NCBI GenBank assembly: GCA_003220955.1
Contig: QHTW01000048.1
Location: 1-32,510, forward strand
Source of the DNA: Gemmatimonadota bacterium
GTDB lineage: Bacteria; Gemmatimonadota; Gemmatimonadetes; Gemmatimonadales; GWC2-71-9
Direction of reading: 5' to 3'
DNA length: 32,510 nt
In this document: piece after piece, positions 24,166 through 29,147 of the stretch
How the letters are laid out: each line of letters starts with the position of its first letter
Numbering within the stretch: position 1 is the first letter of the stretch
Program-made: the position numbers and the translations under genes
Notes under the pieces: model-generated
What the model was told of the DNA's origin: nothing
Database searches by the model: none
Seen by the model: only the letters and a program-made list of their open reading frames with translations

Positions 24166-24933
24166 GTGTTGCACCCCTCGCACTTCTCGAGCTCGCCTGC
24201 CGGCGCCGCAGAGCTCACACGCCAGCGCTTGATTCGCGCCGCCCTGGAGTTGTTCACGACCCGCGGCTACCACGACACCACGACGGCCCAAATCGCCAAG
24301 AAGGCCGGGATCGCCGAGGGGACGATTTACCGCCATTTCGCCAGCAAGCAGCAATTGATGAACGAGCTGTATCGCGCCGCCCAACGGTGGGCTACGAAGT
24401 TGGTCCAGGAGACCGCTCGCGATCCGGAGGCGCGAACGGCCCGCGCCCAACTGATGGCCGTCGCGCACGGTTTGTTCCAGGGGGCGGCGGAGGACACGGC
24501 AGTCGTCAAGCTCGGATTGCTGGAGCGGCTCGAAGCGGTGATCGATGATGAGAGCCGCAAGACAGCGCGGGAGTTTCGGTTGGCGCTCGAGCGGATCGTC
24601 GCCGAAGGCAAAGCTCAGGGTGCAGTACGAACGGGTGCGGTCGAGATCTGGGCGGGGGTCTGGCTGGCGACGATCAGCCACGCGTTAGAGAAGATCGTTG
24701 CCGGCGACTGGAAACCGGGAGATGCCGGCGTGCGATTGGTGATATTAGCGTGTGAGCGATGGGCCCCACTTCGCGACAAAACAAGGCAGTCGCTCCGCGG
24801 GGCCCATCGCTCCCACGTTTTTAGGCACGACGTAATTCGAACAACGCAATCTCTGGCGGCACGAAAACGCGTAGCGGCACCCCGACCACGCCAATTCCCC
24901 TGCTCACGTACAGCTGGCTGTTTCCCTGTGTGA
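24166..24933 (+). CDS. TetR/AcrR family transcriptional regulator
   Basis: N-terminal HTH 'LTRQRLIRAALELFTTRGYHDTTTAQIAKKAGIAEGTIYRHFASKQQLMNELY'. Likely GTG start at 24166 (ORF opens at TTG 24121). C-terminal ~50 aa run through a hairpin and antisense to the next gene, so the 3' end is uncertain. Confidence 0.85.
   Translation: MLHPSHFSSSPAGAAELTRQRLIRAALELFTTRGYHDTTTAQIAKKAGIAEGTIYRHFASKQQLMNELYRAAQRWATKLVQETARDPEARTARAQLMAVAHGLFQGAAEDTAVVKLGLLERLEAVIDDESRKTAREFRLALERIVAEGKAQGAVRTGAVEIWAGVWLATISHALEKIVAGDWKPGDAGVRLVILACERWAPLRDKTRQSLRGAHRSHVFRHDVIRTTQSLAARKRVAAPRPRQFPCSRTAGCFPV
24747..24822. terminator. Long inverted repeat between convergent genes, probable intrinsic terminator
   Basis: Perfect 14-nt arms GAGCGATGGGCCCC (24754-24767) / GGGGCCCATCGCTC (24799-24812), extendable outward with one mismatch and one wobble, inner GCGAC/GTCGC stem, followed on + by TTTTT (24818-24822). 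Confidence 0.6.
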
Positions 24934-26014
24934 AGTGCCCCATCACGTACTTCGTGATCAGGCGGCCTGGTGACCAGCCGACCACCGGCAGATAGAACTG
25001 GCCACCGTGGATGTGGCCCGCGAGCGTAAGGGGGATGCCGCGTGGTGCCGCGCCGTCAAACGCACCGGGGCGGTGAGCGAGCAGGATGCGGAACGCGTCT
25101 TTCGCGGGCGGCGTGAGCCGCAGCGCGGGCTCGAGGTCGTAGTCCTGGGGATCGTCCGCGTGCCAGTTGCGCGGGTCGTCAATGCCGATGAGCGCGAGCG
25201 CGGCGCCGTCCCGCTCGATGACGTGCGCGCCATTCTTCACGAACACCTGCCCCGCGTCGCGCACGCCACGAATCACGGCGTCCTCGCCCGTGTAGCGATC
25301 GTGATTGCCCAGGACAGTCACCACGCCGAGCGGAGCGCGCAGGTCGCGAAACGCTCGCACATAGTCCGAGATATACGATTGCGAGATGTCGATCATGTCG
25401 CCGGTCTGCACGATCAGATCGGCGCCGAGGGCGTTCGTCTGCGCGACGATGGCCCGCATTTTCGCTTCGGACATGTGAATGCCGGCGTGCACATCGGAGA
25501 GATGCGCGATGCGGAGCCCGTCGAGCCCGGCCGGCAGATTCGGAAATACCAGCGCGCGGCGCGTGACCTTCGGGAGGCGCTCGGCGCTCCAGATGCCGTA
25601 CGCCGACACGCCGAGTCCCACGACGGCATATGCGTAGGTCGCGCGTGCGAGGAACTGTCGACGCGACATGGCGGTTGGGCGGTTGAGCGGCTCGGCGGTT
25701 GGAGAGTGGCGCAGTTTTCCAACCGCCCAACCGCCGAACCACCAAACCGCCTTCGTGAGTATGTAAAGCGCAACCAGCCCACAGAAAATCCAGCCGAGCA
25801 GCTGCCAGGCGATCCACGGCGCAATGTAGGGAACACGACTGATCCCCCACAGACTGCCGGAGAACATCCGCACGGCGACGATGCCCCACGGGATGTTGAA
25901 GACGACGAACACGACGGTGAGCCAGCGCCGCGCCGAGAGCGGCAGGCGCTCACGCAGATAGAGGAATAGCAGTATTTGAGGCGCCGCGAACAGCAAAAGG
26001 TAGATTAGGGCCAT
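24821..26014 (-). CDS. Membrane-anchored metallophosphoesterase (YkuE-like)
   Basis: 397 aa; N-terminal TM helices, then 'MSRRQFLARATYAYAVVGLGVS', then 'IAHLSDVHAG', 'GADLIVQTGDMID', 'VLGNHDRYTG', 'LLAHRPGAFD', 'LAGHIHGGQF'. Confidence 0.92.
   Translation of the reverse strand: MALIYLLLFAAPQILLFLYLRERLPLSARRWLTVVFVVFNIPWGIVAVRMFSGSLWGISRVPYIAPWIAWQLLGWIFCGLVALYILTKAVWWFGGWAVGKLRHSPTAEPLNRPTAMSRRQFLARATYAYAVVGLGVSAYGIWSAERLPKVTRRALVFPNLPAGLDGLRIAHLSDVHAGIHMSEAKMRAIVAQTNALGADLIVQTGDMIDISQSYISDYVRAFRDLRAPLGVVTVLGNHDRYTGEDAVIRGVRDAGQVFVKNGAHVIERDGAALALIGIDDPRNWHADDPQDYDLEPALRLTPPAKDAFRILLAHRPGAFDGAAPRGIPLTLAGHIHGGQFYLPVVGWSPGRLITKYVMGHFTQGNSQLYVSRGIGVVGVPLRVFVPPEIALFELRRA
25670..25751. repeat. 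Palindromic octamer-repeat element, copy 1 (inside the metallophosphoesterase gene)
   Basis: Left arm GGCGGTTG-GGCGGTTG-AGCGGCTC-GGCGGTTG-GA; reverse complement of right arm GGCGGTTT-GGTGGTTC-GGCGGTTG-GGCGGTTG-GA; 28/34 identical, 14-nt spacer. Confidence 0.75.
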
Positions 26015-27311
26015 GTCATCCCGTACGCTGACGTTTTTTGGCTTGTTCCCCGCGCTTCTCGGCGCCCAGCGACCCGCGAGTGTCGATCGACAACTGGCGG
26101 CCGCTGGTCTGTGGGCCGAAGCACGCTACAACTATGCCTACTGGGACGTCGTCCGCGCGAATTGGGACTCCGCGTTCGCTGCGACGGTCACCTTTACAGA
26201 AGCGCGGCCCGCGCCGAGCGACTTGCAATTCCTTCGGCGGCTGCGGCGCTGGGGCGCGCTGCTCAATGACGGCCAGCTCGAGCTGCTCGCGCCGGCCGCC
26301 GTGGCGAACCGCATCGCGCGACCACCCCTGGCGCTGCGCAGCATCGAGCGCCGGCCATTCATCATCGACTACGTCGTCAACGACGAGATGCGCGTGGCGC
26401 GACCCGAGCGGTTGGCGGAGATCCTGGCGGTCCAGGGCATCCCTGCCGCCGCGTGGATTCGCGACTCGGTCGTGCCGGAAGTCGCCGCAACCAACGAGGC
26501 GAGCCGCTGGGAGCGCGCCGTCGCGCAGATGCTCGACGGTGAGCGCGGCACGGCGCTGCACCTCCTGCTGCGACTCCCGGGCGGTGCCGAGCGCGGCGCG
26601 AGCGTCACACGCACGCTGGCGTTGACCGCGCGGTCGTCGCTCGACCGCGCCGCGCTCGAAGCCGATACCCTGCCCGACGGCGTGATCTGGATGCGCGTGA
26701 ACTCCCTCGCCGATCCGGATGTCCTCAGCCTGTTCGATCGCTCCGTCGGCAACGCGGCGCGCGAAGGACCACGCCATCGCGGCTTGATTCTGGATCTTCG
26801 GGAGACCACCTGGACCCCACACGAGCGGGATCAAGGCTACGCGCTGCTGCTCTCGCGCCTCATCGACCGCCCGTTCCTTACCGCCCAGCGTCGCAAGGCG
26901 CGCTACAGCCTCGACTCGCTCGCCTGGGCCGGCACGCCGCCCGACACGATCTGGCCACCGCCGCGGCGCGAGCGGATCGCGTACAGCGGCCCAATCGTCG
27001 TGCTCTGCTCGCCGCGCACGGCCGGCGCCGCGGAAGACTTCGTCGTCGCATTTCGGGCGGGCGGGCGCGGTCCGATCATCGGCGAGCGGACGGCCGGGAG
27101 CACGGGACAGACGGCGGTGCTGCCGCTCGCGCCCGGATGGAAGATCCGCCTGACCGTGTCGCGCGACGCGTTCCCCGACGGCAAGGAATTCGTGGGCACC
27201 GGGATCGCGCCCGACATCCCGGTGGACGTGCGCGTCGAGGACGTGCTCGCCGGGCGAGATGCGGCGTTGGATCGCGCGCGCGCCTACCTCAGCGAAACGG
27301 CCCGGCGCTAG
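26013..27311 (+). CDS. S41 family peptidase-like protein
   Basis: 432 aa; signal peptide; C-terminal TSPc-like region 'GLILDLRETTW...GPIVVLCSPRTAGAAEDFVVAFRAGGRGPIIGERTAGSTGQTAVLPLAPGWKIRLTVSRDAFPDGKEFVGTGIAPDIPV'. Confidence 0.85.
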   Translation: MSSRTLTFFGLFPALLGAQRPASVDRQLAAAGLWAEARYNYAYWDVVRANWDSAFAATVTFTEARPAPSDLQFLRRLRRWGALLNDGQLELLAPAAVANRIARPPLALRSIERRPFIIDYVVNDEMRVARPERLAEILAVQGIPAAAWIRDSVVPEVAATNEASRWERAVAQMLDGERGTALHLLLRLPGGAERGASVTRTLALTARSSLDRAALEADTLPDGVIWMRVNSLADPDVLSLFDRSVGNAAREGPRHRGLILDLRETTWTPHERDQGYALLLSRLIDRPFLTAQRRKARYSLDSLAWAGTPPDTIWPPPRRERIAYSGPIVVLCSPRTAGAAEDFVVAFRAGGRGPIIGERTAGSTGQTAVLPLAPGWKIRLTVSRDAFPDGKEFVGTGIAPDIPVDVRVEDVLAGRDAALDRARAYLSETARR

Positions 27312-28087
27312 GTCTTCAGCTGCGCGCGGAAGAAGCTGATCACCGCGCGCCACGCGCTGTCGGCGACTTCCGGTTTCTCGCGCGTGCGCAGAAAGCCGTG
27401 CCCGACCCCCGGATAGACGGTGTACGGGTAGGCCTTGCCGGCAGCCCGCATCGCCGCCGCGGCGTCCGGTAGTCCCGCGTCGATGCGCGCGTCGTTCTCG
27501 GCATACACGCCGAGCCCCTTCGCGCGAATCTTCGGTATATCGGCGGTGTTGGGCGCAGGACCATAGCAGACCACAAAGGCTTTCAATTCAGGCGCATTCG
27601 TCGCGTACCGGAAACTTTGCCCGCCGCCCCAGCAGAAGCCGATGACCCCGACGTCGCTCGCACGGGCGGCCTTCACGGTCTTTAGAAAGGCGCGCGTCGC
27701 CTCGAGATCGGCCGTTATGGTATCGGGGTTCAGCGTTGCGATCAGTTTGCGCGCGGAATCTTGCGACGCCGGCGTACCACCGCGGTGCGACAACAAGTCG
27801 GGCGCAATCGCGACGAAGCCGTCCTTGGCGAGCTGCTCGATTGTCTGCTTGATAAAGTCCGACATGCCGAAGATCTCGTGGATGACGATCACCGCCGGCG
27901 CCGGCTGCGGGCGCTCCGGATACGCGATGTACGCGGTCACCGTGTCTTTGCCGTTGAGGAACTTCACGTACTCGGAGTGGATGTCGGTTAGGCGGTTAGA
28001 CGGGTAGGCGGTTAGCACAAACCCGACCAACCCCGCCGCCGCGACGAAACCGCTAACCTTCCAACCGTCTAGCCGCCTAGCGCCCAT
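27308..28087 (-). CDS. Dienelactone hydrolase family protein
   Basis: 'PAVIVIHEIFGMSDFIKQTIEQLAKDGFVAIAPDLLSHRGG', catalytic Cys 'VGVIGFCWGGGQSFRYA', Asp 'AENDARID', His 'YPGVGHGF'. N-terminal ~35 aa are encoded by a repeat element, so the true start is uncertain. Confidence 0.88.
   Translation of the reverse strand: MGARRLDGWKVSGFVAAAGLVGFVLTAYPSNRLTDIHSEYVKFLNGKDTVTAYIAYPERPQPAPAVIVIHEIFGMSDFIKQTIEQLAKDGFVAIAPDLLSHRGGTPASQDSARKLIATLNPDTITADLEATRAFLKTVKAARASDVGVIGFCWGGGQSFRYATNAPELKAFVVCYGPAPNTADIPKIRAKGLGVYAENDARIDAGLPDAAAAMRAAGKAYPYTVYPGVGHGFLRTREKPEVADSAWRAVISFFRAQLKT
27984..28084. repeat. Palindromic octamer-repeat element, copy 2 (junction of sugar dehydrogenase and dienelactone hydrolase genes)
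   Basis: Left arm TCGGTTAG-GCGGTTAG-ACGGGTAG-GCGGTTAG; reverse complement of right arm GGCGCTAG-GCGGCTAG-ACGGTTGG-AAGGTTAG; about 37-nt spacer. Confidence 0.72.
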
Positions 28088-29147
28088 AGCTCACCCTCCA
28101 GATTTTGCCGCCCATGTCATCACTCACCAGCAGCGATCCGTCCGGCAATACGAGCAAGCCGACGGGCCGTCCCCAGCGACTGCCATCGGGACGTTGCCAG
28201 CCGACGATGAAATCCTCGACGCCGGCGCTGTCGACCTCCACCCGTACGACTTTTGCGCTCGTGGGAACGCTGCGGTTCCACGAGCCGTGCAGCGTGACAA
28301 ACGCATCGCCGCGATACTCGGCGGGGAACTGCGTTCCCGTGTAGAACGCGATGCCGAGCGGCGCGGAGTGCGCCTGGATCGTGATCGCCGGCGGCTCGAC
28401 AGTCGAGCAGTTCGCCGAACCGTACTCGGGATTCGGCTTGCCGGGGAGATAACACTCCGGCCAGCCGTAGTTGCGACCGTCTTTGATGATGTTGATGTGC
28501 TCGGGCGGTGCGTCATCGCCGAGGTTGTCGCGGTCGTTGTTGCCGCCCCACAGCTCGCCCGTTTTCGGGTTGAATGCCAAGCCGACCGTGTTACGCAGCC
28601 CCCGCGCGAATATCCGGCCCCCCGAAGCGTCGGCGTTGAACTGCGTCACGGCCGCCCGCATTGAGTCACGCTCGTCGCAGACATTGCATGAGGACCCGAC
28701 CGCTACGTACAGCTTGCCGTCCGGACCGAACACGATCGTCCGGGTCGAATGACCGCTGCGTGGCAAGCGCAGCAGCGTCTTTGGCTCACGGACGCCCGGA
28801 TCGTAACGAACGAGCTCGAGCTCCCCGGCGACGTACATGGTGTCGCCGCGGAAGGCGATGCCGAAGGCGCCTTTCAGTCCGCTCGCGACCGTCACCACGC
28901 TGTCGCGGACACCATCGTGATTCGCGTCGATGAGCTTGACGACCAGACCGGACCCCGGCTGCGAGGCATAGACCACGTTGCCCGGGCCGAGCGTCATGAA
29001 GCGGACGTTCGGGAGATTCTCGGCGAATACGGCGATCTTGAACCCGGGCGGTACGCGGAGCGCGTCGTCGCTCCTTGCTTGACTCCGGGCGGGAGCTCCG
29101 CCGCAGGCGACGGCGATGACGGCGGCGAACAAGGCACGTAGACGCAT
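28077..29147 (-). CDS. PQQ-dependent sugar dehydrogenase-like (sorbosone/glucose dehydrogenase family), secreted
   Basis: 356 aa; signal peptide; 'VPPGFKIAVFAENLPNVRFMTLGPGNVVYAS', 'GHSTRTIVFGPDGKLYVAVGSSCNVCDE', 'RIFARGLRNTVGLAFNPKTGELWGGNNDRDNLGDDAPPEHINII'. Confidence 0.9.
   Translation of the reverse strand: MRLRALFAAVIAVACGGAPARSQARSDDALRVPPGFKIAVFAENLPNVRFMTLGPGNVVYASQPGSGLVVKLIDANHDGVRDSVVTVASGLKGAFGIAFRGDTMYVAGELELVRYDPGVREPKTLLRLPRSGHSTRTIVFGPDGKLYVAVGSSCNVCDERDSMRAAVTQFNADASGGRIFARGLRNTVGLAFNPKTGELWGGNNDRDNLGDDAPPEHINIIKDGRNYGWPECYLPGKPNPEYGSANCSTVEPPAITIQAHSAPLGIAFYTGTQFPAEYRGDAFVTLHGSWNRSVPTSAKVVRVEVDSAGVEDFIVGWQRPDGSRWGRPVGLLVLPDGSLLVSDDMGGKIWRVSYGR

Follow-up and report, generated by a model that had tools for sequence, protein, structure and literature searches.

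Inverted ladders of short tandem units are dispersed through Gemmatimonadetes genomes, are mostly translated in frame, and differ in unit between species

Short palindromes ("ladders"), in which a locus-specific spacer separates four degenerate CGGTTNGG units from four inverted ones, are present in dozens of copies per genome in a group of Gemmatimonadetes, the counts combining pattern searches with the stretches examined. Ladders are mostly translated in frame with stops avoided, they come and go as units between congeners, and both of their arms switch unit together. The whole is best read as a set of selfish, dispersed, in-frame palindromic repeats, working in the manner of the Rickettsia palindromic elements (RPE) and built in the manner of the heptamer hairpins of cyanobacteria, a reading given about an even chance.

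The window (the whole 32,510-nt stretch of DNA that was analysed, contig QHTW01000048.1 of assembly GCA_003220955.1) comes from a soil bacterium of the Gemmatimonadetes lineage, and its features are listed in Table 1. Ladder 1, predicted from the letters as an octamer palindrome, is confirmed: it consists of 4+4 units of 8 nt in two 32-nt arms, and the arms match the prediction to the letter, with 25670–25701 reading GGCGGTTG GGCGGTTG AGCGGCTC GGCGGTTG and the inverted arm at 25720–25751 reading CAACCGCC CAACCGCC GAACCACC AAACCGCC. In the register of the CGGTTNGG unit, the remaining spacer is 14 nt, and a related version of it is retained in orthologs with the same unit. Translation in frame as a linker is likewise confirmed, the 397-aa host ORF encoding, in order, N-terminal hydrophobic segments, the ladder-coded linker AVWWFGGWAVGKLRHSPTAEPLNRPTA, an SRRQFL segment, and the phosphoesterase domain. 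The same architecture had been noted further along the window and proves to be a second ladder copy, with its core at 27987–28081, forming the N terminus of the dienelactone-hydrolase-family gene. The paired 16-mer, with three mismatches allowed, occurs 9 times in the window against 0.76 expected; a broader scan, open to inverted tandem ladders whatever their unit, returned exactly these two, and none in ten 3-mer-shuffled copies (the ladder scan required arms of at least 30 nt).

Table 1. Ladders and host genes in the window (positions of the forward strand)
Feature	Position	Strand	Remarks
Octamer ladder 1	25670..25751	.	Four units + 14-nt spacer + four inverted; in frame in ORF 24821-26014
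Left arm, unit register	25672..25703	+	CGGTTGGG CGGTTGAG CGGCTCGG CGGTTGGA
Spacer of ladder 1	25704..25717	.	GAGTGGCGCAGTTT
Right (inverted) arm	25718..25749	-	TCCAACCG CCCAACCG CCGAACCA CCAAACCG
Host ORF of ladder 1, 397 aa, metallophosphoesterase	24821..26014	-	Calcineurin-like phosphoesterase domain
Octamer ladder 2	27984..28084	.	Four units, loop ~35 nt, about four inverted units
Host ORF of ladder 2, 259 aa, dienelactone hydrolase family	27308..28087	-	N-terminal signal-like segment MGARRLDGWKVSGFVAAAGLVGFVLTAYPSNRLT ladder-coded
Upstream ORF, glucose/sorbosone dehydrogenase family	28077..29147	-	TAG stop 28077-28079 within ladder 2

Further copies had been expected elsewhere in the source genome, and they were found. 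Exact tandem unit pairs number 22 in this assembly (2.64 Mb, 75.5% complete, 326 contigs), against 0 in reversed controls, and with one mismatch the paired units rise to 141 against 14. Relatives found by pattern are Gemmatimonadetes metagenome-assembled genomes (MAGs), and all named relatives are draft MAGs. Among 84,980 species, the strict 2+2 form was found in 23 stretches, 20 of them titled Gemmatimonadetes or Gemmatimonadota; CGGTTNGG ladders are mainly confined to Gemmatimonadetes. One stretch titled Acidobacteria gp6 (L084, contig QHWF01000043.1) raised the idea of horizontal spread to Acidobacteria; this was rejected, as the contig is probably a misassigned Gemmatimonadetes one, being 74%–87% identical in nucleotides over ~2 kb to loci of the source genus.

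Anatomy was read from 44 CGGTTNGG palindromes of six congeneric species. The 4+4 arrangement is found in 27, and most others carry 3 or 5 units in one arm. Within the unit, the first G and the C, G, G, T, and T positions hardly vary, the last G varies more, and N takes any base (153 times G, 100 A, 55 C, and 33 T). A neighbouring gene could be called, by codon-bias heuristics, for 39 of the 44 palindromes, and 36 of these 39 are open in that gene's frame, compared with 16.7 ± 3.0 (maximum 27) when N is permuted; the copy that precedes rpsJ, counted among the 36, in fact lies between genes. One reading phase prevails, being used by 27 of the 36 copies and, when counted by hand, by about 14 of 20 coding loci.

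Merging of orthologs by hand left about 21 independent loci, and at around 17 of them the ladder forms an N-terminal export-signal-like segment of one of a series of unrelated proteins, an assignment that reads composition and position. Typically, the left arm encodes AVGRLGGWAV, a hydrophobic loop follows, and the right arm encodes LTAQPPNRLTAQ, after which comes the mature part. Among the gene products are an M19 membrane dipeptidase, a cytochrome c protein, and PorV-like, SPOR/TPR, and PD40 proteins. Other ladders are inter-domain insertions: in the source genus, CGGTT units are found in PheT (between B1 and B3/4) and in YidC (before the periplasmic domain); in other Gemmatimonadetes, they are found in GlmM and GlcF linkers; and further ladders, with units that are related or different, lie in DnaX, MnmE, and a protein kinase. 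The original prediction that the element tolerates coding DNA is supported by stop avoidance in frame; it had missed that most copies look like export signals. That the ladders are simply ordinary coding sequence with codon-level repeats, as the translation of most copies might imply, is effectively refuted and retains hardly any probability: 8 nt is no multiple of a codon, the arms are inverted copies of each other, many unrelated genes hold the CGGTTNGG unit, and shuffled windows contain no ladders.

Orthologous sites are either empty or filled with ladders of other units of 7, 8, 9, or 10 nt. A unit-blind scan of the source genome and its congeners recovered ladders of AATGCGG, GTCGTGC, GTGGTGC, GCCGTGC, AGGTGTC, and CGGCCNGA, together with 10-nt GGCGGCGRAG and GGCGGTAARR types; shuffled controls, run for part of the sets, gave no ladders. 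At the metallophosphoesterase site, CGGTTNGG units are present in four species and 7-nt units in four others. The PheT site holds CGGTTNGG, CGGCCCGA, CGGTCAAGG (9 nt), or CGGATGGG, with no ladder in two species, and the unit also differs between species in YidC, DnaX, and two export signals. Arms within one element match each other better than they match the arms of orthologs, and in YidC the species have a conserved loop between arms that both vary. Orthologs differ in the linker peptide rather than conserving it, and the turnover of the unit at fixed sites had escaped the original prediction.

Several unit types coexist within one genome, and there is a genome-wide bias to one of them, a dialect: among 8-nt ladders, with types assigned by hand from printed alignments, different loci of the same genome agree in type in 44 of 61 comparisons versus 23 expected, a value not reached in 20000 permutations. 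A five-locus tree does not group the species by unit type; dialect does not follow the tree. In G006, a second dienelactone hydrolase locus (L159) has a GGAAGGTT-type ladder and the first a CGGTTNGG ladder, giving two unit types at paralogous sites in one genome.

The earlier suggestion of a mobile repeat is supported by empty sites beside filled ones in close relatives. Between tuf and rpsJ, the junction is bare (~10 nt) in G009 and in the nearest relative, G002, which is 93.5% identical to the window's species over five tree loci. At this same junction, the window's species has a CGGTTNGG palindrome, G005 a CGGATGGG-like palindrome, and G007 and G008 a common AATGCGG palindrome, amounting to three kinds of ladder across four species. 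Between fusA and tuf, the window's species carries an AGGTGTC palindrome (L113:1057–1121) and G008 a GTCGTGC one (L308), with the other readable species bare. The DTIPPGYGTL gene has a short signal of ~12 residues in four species and a CGGTT ladder form in three, and the DSQFGI gene has ladder-free signals in G003 and G004. Since close relatives may be filled or empty at one and the same site, ladders have been gained or lost as units of roughly 70–90 bp, the comparison being one of congeners without outgroup polarity; furthermore, the same sites are struck by different units. The tuf-rpsJ palindromes of G007 (L306) and G008 (L308) appear identical despite differences in the flanking genes, a pattern suggestive of transfer or recombination. 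Recombination between species could also carry ladders along with their flanks.

The favoured reading supposes that ladders are selfish repeat DNA. Copies would arise through replication slippage together with template switching or ectopic conversion, for which resident ladders would act as seeds, and these same processes would rewrite existing ladders. A new copy would survive only where its peptide is harmless, as in linkers and at operon junctions, or useful, with the arms serving as a workable n-region on one side of the hydrophobic loop and as an LTAQ-type cleavage region on the other. Signal peptides would shelter such copies well, since all that they require is basic residues at the start, a hydrophobic core, and small residues at the end, which arms and loop might provide. 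In favour of selfish repeats stand the copy number against its control, in-frame openness (36 of 39 against 16.7), the export-signal pattern in unrelated genes and the inter-domain linkers, the empty and filled states of tuf-rpsJ, fusA-tuf, and the two export-signal genes, and a unit that switches in both arms with a genome-wide dialect off the tree.

Set against the same reading is that no enzyme was found, no consistent pattern of target-site duplication at empty and filled sites, and no near-identical donor: for the tuf-rpsJ palindrome of the source genome, the best match in available sequence is 81% within its own genome and 84% in a relative. N patterns are unrelated between loci, unlike those expected of recent copy-and-paste. 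Recent copies of one master were rejected on these patterns and on the lack of a near-identical donor for one lineage-specific insertion. A further candidate came from the source-genome tuf-rpsJ locus (L004), where the loop sequence TATTTC repeats the six bases just after the right arm; the loop as a copy of flanking DNA was dropped, given that loop/flank repeats are not general.

The conserved YidC loop between differing arms sits better with rewriting in place than with insertion of whole elements. Accordingly, one alternative, possible if unlikely, is that ladders are old and vertically inherited, with little new insertion, and that concerted evolution via conversion among ladder arms rewrites their units where they stand. 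A dialect common to the loci of one genome, and the many sites filled in most congeners, would be expected in that case; close relatives filled and empty at tuf-rpsJ, fusA-tuf, and the two export-signal genes would not, nor would unrelated unit types at one junction or N patterns that are not common between loci. It is also conceivable, if improbable, that an unrecognised templated activity writes ladders de novo at preferred sites (four degenerate units, spacer, four inverted units), the template setting the dialect. A change of template would then rewrite or replace a genome's ladders, signal-peptide ones included.

In the more distant ortholog pairs, substitution reaches 42% at N, 3%–15% in the core, 22% at the last G, and 22% in the flanks, rates taken from pairs still recognisable as CGGTTNGG and thus biased, since unit-switched ladders drop out. 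A core that changes less than its flanks, a free N, and units in all codon phases are consistent with arrays of sites for a DNA- or RNA-binding protein (a regulator or nucleoid protein), and the genome-wide dialect would then reflect protein specificity. G015, from another genus of the family, has the CGGTTNGG unit as one-sided direct arrays of 4–17 units (L129–L135), mostly non-coding and mostly just downstream of the 3′ end of a gene in the gene's sense, which also speaks for such sites. This proposal is nonetheless rather improbable: the rate estimate excludes unit-switched ladders, several unit types occur in one genome, close species differ in presence and absence, and many ladders lie within genes such as PheT and GlmM. 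A DNA uptake sequence was ruled out, as single CGGTTNGG units are not over-represented genome-wide; lone units beyond the ladders occur at or below expectation.

Movement by a RAYT (Y1 transposase), with the ladder as a REP/MITE-like element, had been raised in the original prediction and is unsupported. REPs are extragenic, mostly bear a tetranucleotide tag, and are associated with RAYTs (PMC3733652, PMC2817692). Like them, ladders are short imperfect palindromes, dispersed and in species-specific families (PMC3733652, PMC2817692), and the source genome (G000) does contain a Y1_Tnp gene. In two other genera, palindromic ladders of other units lie within ~0.2 kb (G013, L099:2023–2087) and ~1 kb (G015, L103:2841–2960) of Y1_Tnp genes, a possible lead towards a RAYT. 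Yet the 10 kb surrounding the source genome's Y1_Tnp gene contain no ladder, G007 has ladders and no Y1_Tnp match, ladders are mostly intragenic, no near-identical donor was found for the tuf-rpsJ palindrome, and the two window copies show no GTAG/GGAG-type tag at the stem foot. A RAYT-driven origin is therefore decidedly improbable. As for classical MITE features, the arms are inverted, and empty and filled sites show no consistent duplication.

The original prediction also proposed a structured-RNA element and called for folding. Folded as single-stranded DNA, ladder 1 is better than all 200 shuffles (z −3.8), and ladder 2 shows a weaker excess (z −2.0); together with the many copies near start codons, this might point to an mRNA hairpin acting, for example, on translation or stability. 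Such a role is very improbable and the proposal finds no support: cross-arm pairing at N is at chance level, double changes between orthologs are rare and close to the level of the slid control, and no credible Rfam family matches. With N pairing at chance and compensation near control, fold stability is apparently not what is kept. GTTRGGC resembles the attC core; an attC-like site was dropped on reading, since the arms consist of tandem octamers and lie in unrelated genes rather than at the boundaries of cassettes.

That no named family covers these palindromes was a fair claim, and no account of such repeats in Gemmatimonadetes turned up in the literature search; close relatives in kind do exist in RPE and in the Nostoc trnL intron, which has a hairpin made of 7-nt repeats. 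RPE are ~150 bp long, encode a conserved peptide, and comprise several families, with many copies in frame in unrelated genes (PMC10969869). Ladders share with RPE the form of short dispersed palindromes, many in frame in unrelated genes (PMC10969869), as well as in-frame translation, many copies, and presence/absence between orthologs, and no homology is claimed. They differ in that each arm is four tandem 7–10-nt units, the spacer is locus-specific, export signals appear to prevail, the unit changes between species at one site, and the phylum is another.

In build, the closer likeness is to P6b of the Nostoc trnL group I intron, a heptanucleotide-repeat hairpin whose arms are tandem degenerate 7-nt units; each orthologous hairpin uses one or the other of two unit classes, and the class is inferred to have shifted repeatedly (PMC4476775, PMC3488679). 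Ladders resemble P6b and the cyanobacterial short tandem repeats (STRR) in their tandem, degenerate short-unit arms and in unit switching at an orthologous site, with units of 7–10 nt. P6b, however, is one cyanobacterial intron stem in which pairing is thought to matter (PMC4476775, PMC3488679), whereas ladders are genome-wide, lie in protein-coding DNA, have many unit types, and show no pairing signal at N. Their units also differ from the TDNGATT and NNTGAGT quoted in PMC4476775, and common descent is not claimed. TAACTGA heptamer repeats of Beggiatoaceae, cyanobacteria, and Bacteroidetes are similarly dispersed, tandem, patchy in distribution, and often near start codons, but are direct rather than inverted and mostly intergenic (PMC4679880). 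In contrast to REPs, ladders are mostly intragenic, untagged in the window copies, and without a link found to a Y1 gene.

Ladders extend two isolated oddities, the in-frame palindromes known from Rickettsia and a Nostoc intron hairpin whose heptamer class switches, to a genome-wide phenomenon in an unrelated phylum. Ten congeners with filled and empty sites and several unit dialects offer a comparative system that bears on how short-unit palindromes arise, spread, and change together. As judged from sequence, the ladders suggest that repeat DNA supplies protein parts, both as linkers in essential enzymes and as export signals in many secreted proteins that are unrelated to one another. Ladders may also lie close together: on contig JAEUJI010000371.1 (L076), several long palindromic ladders of the GGGGAAAC type are grouped within a few kb.
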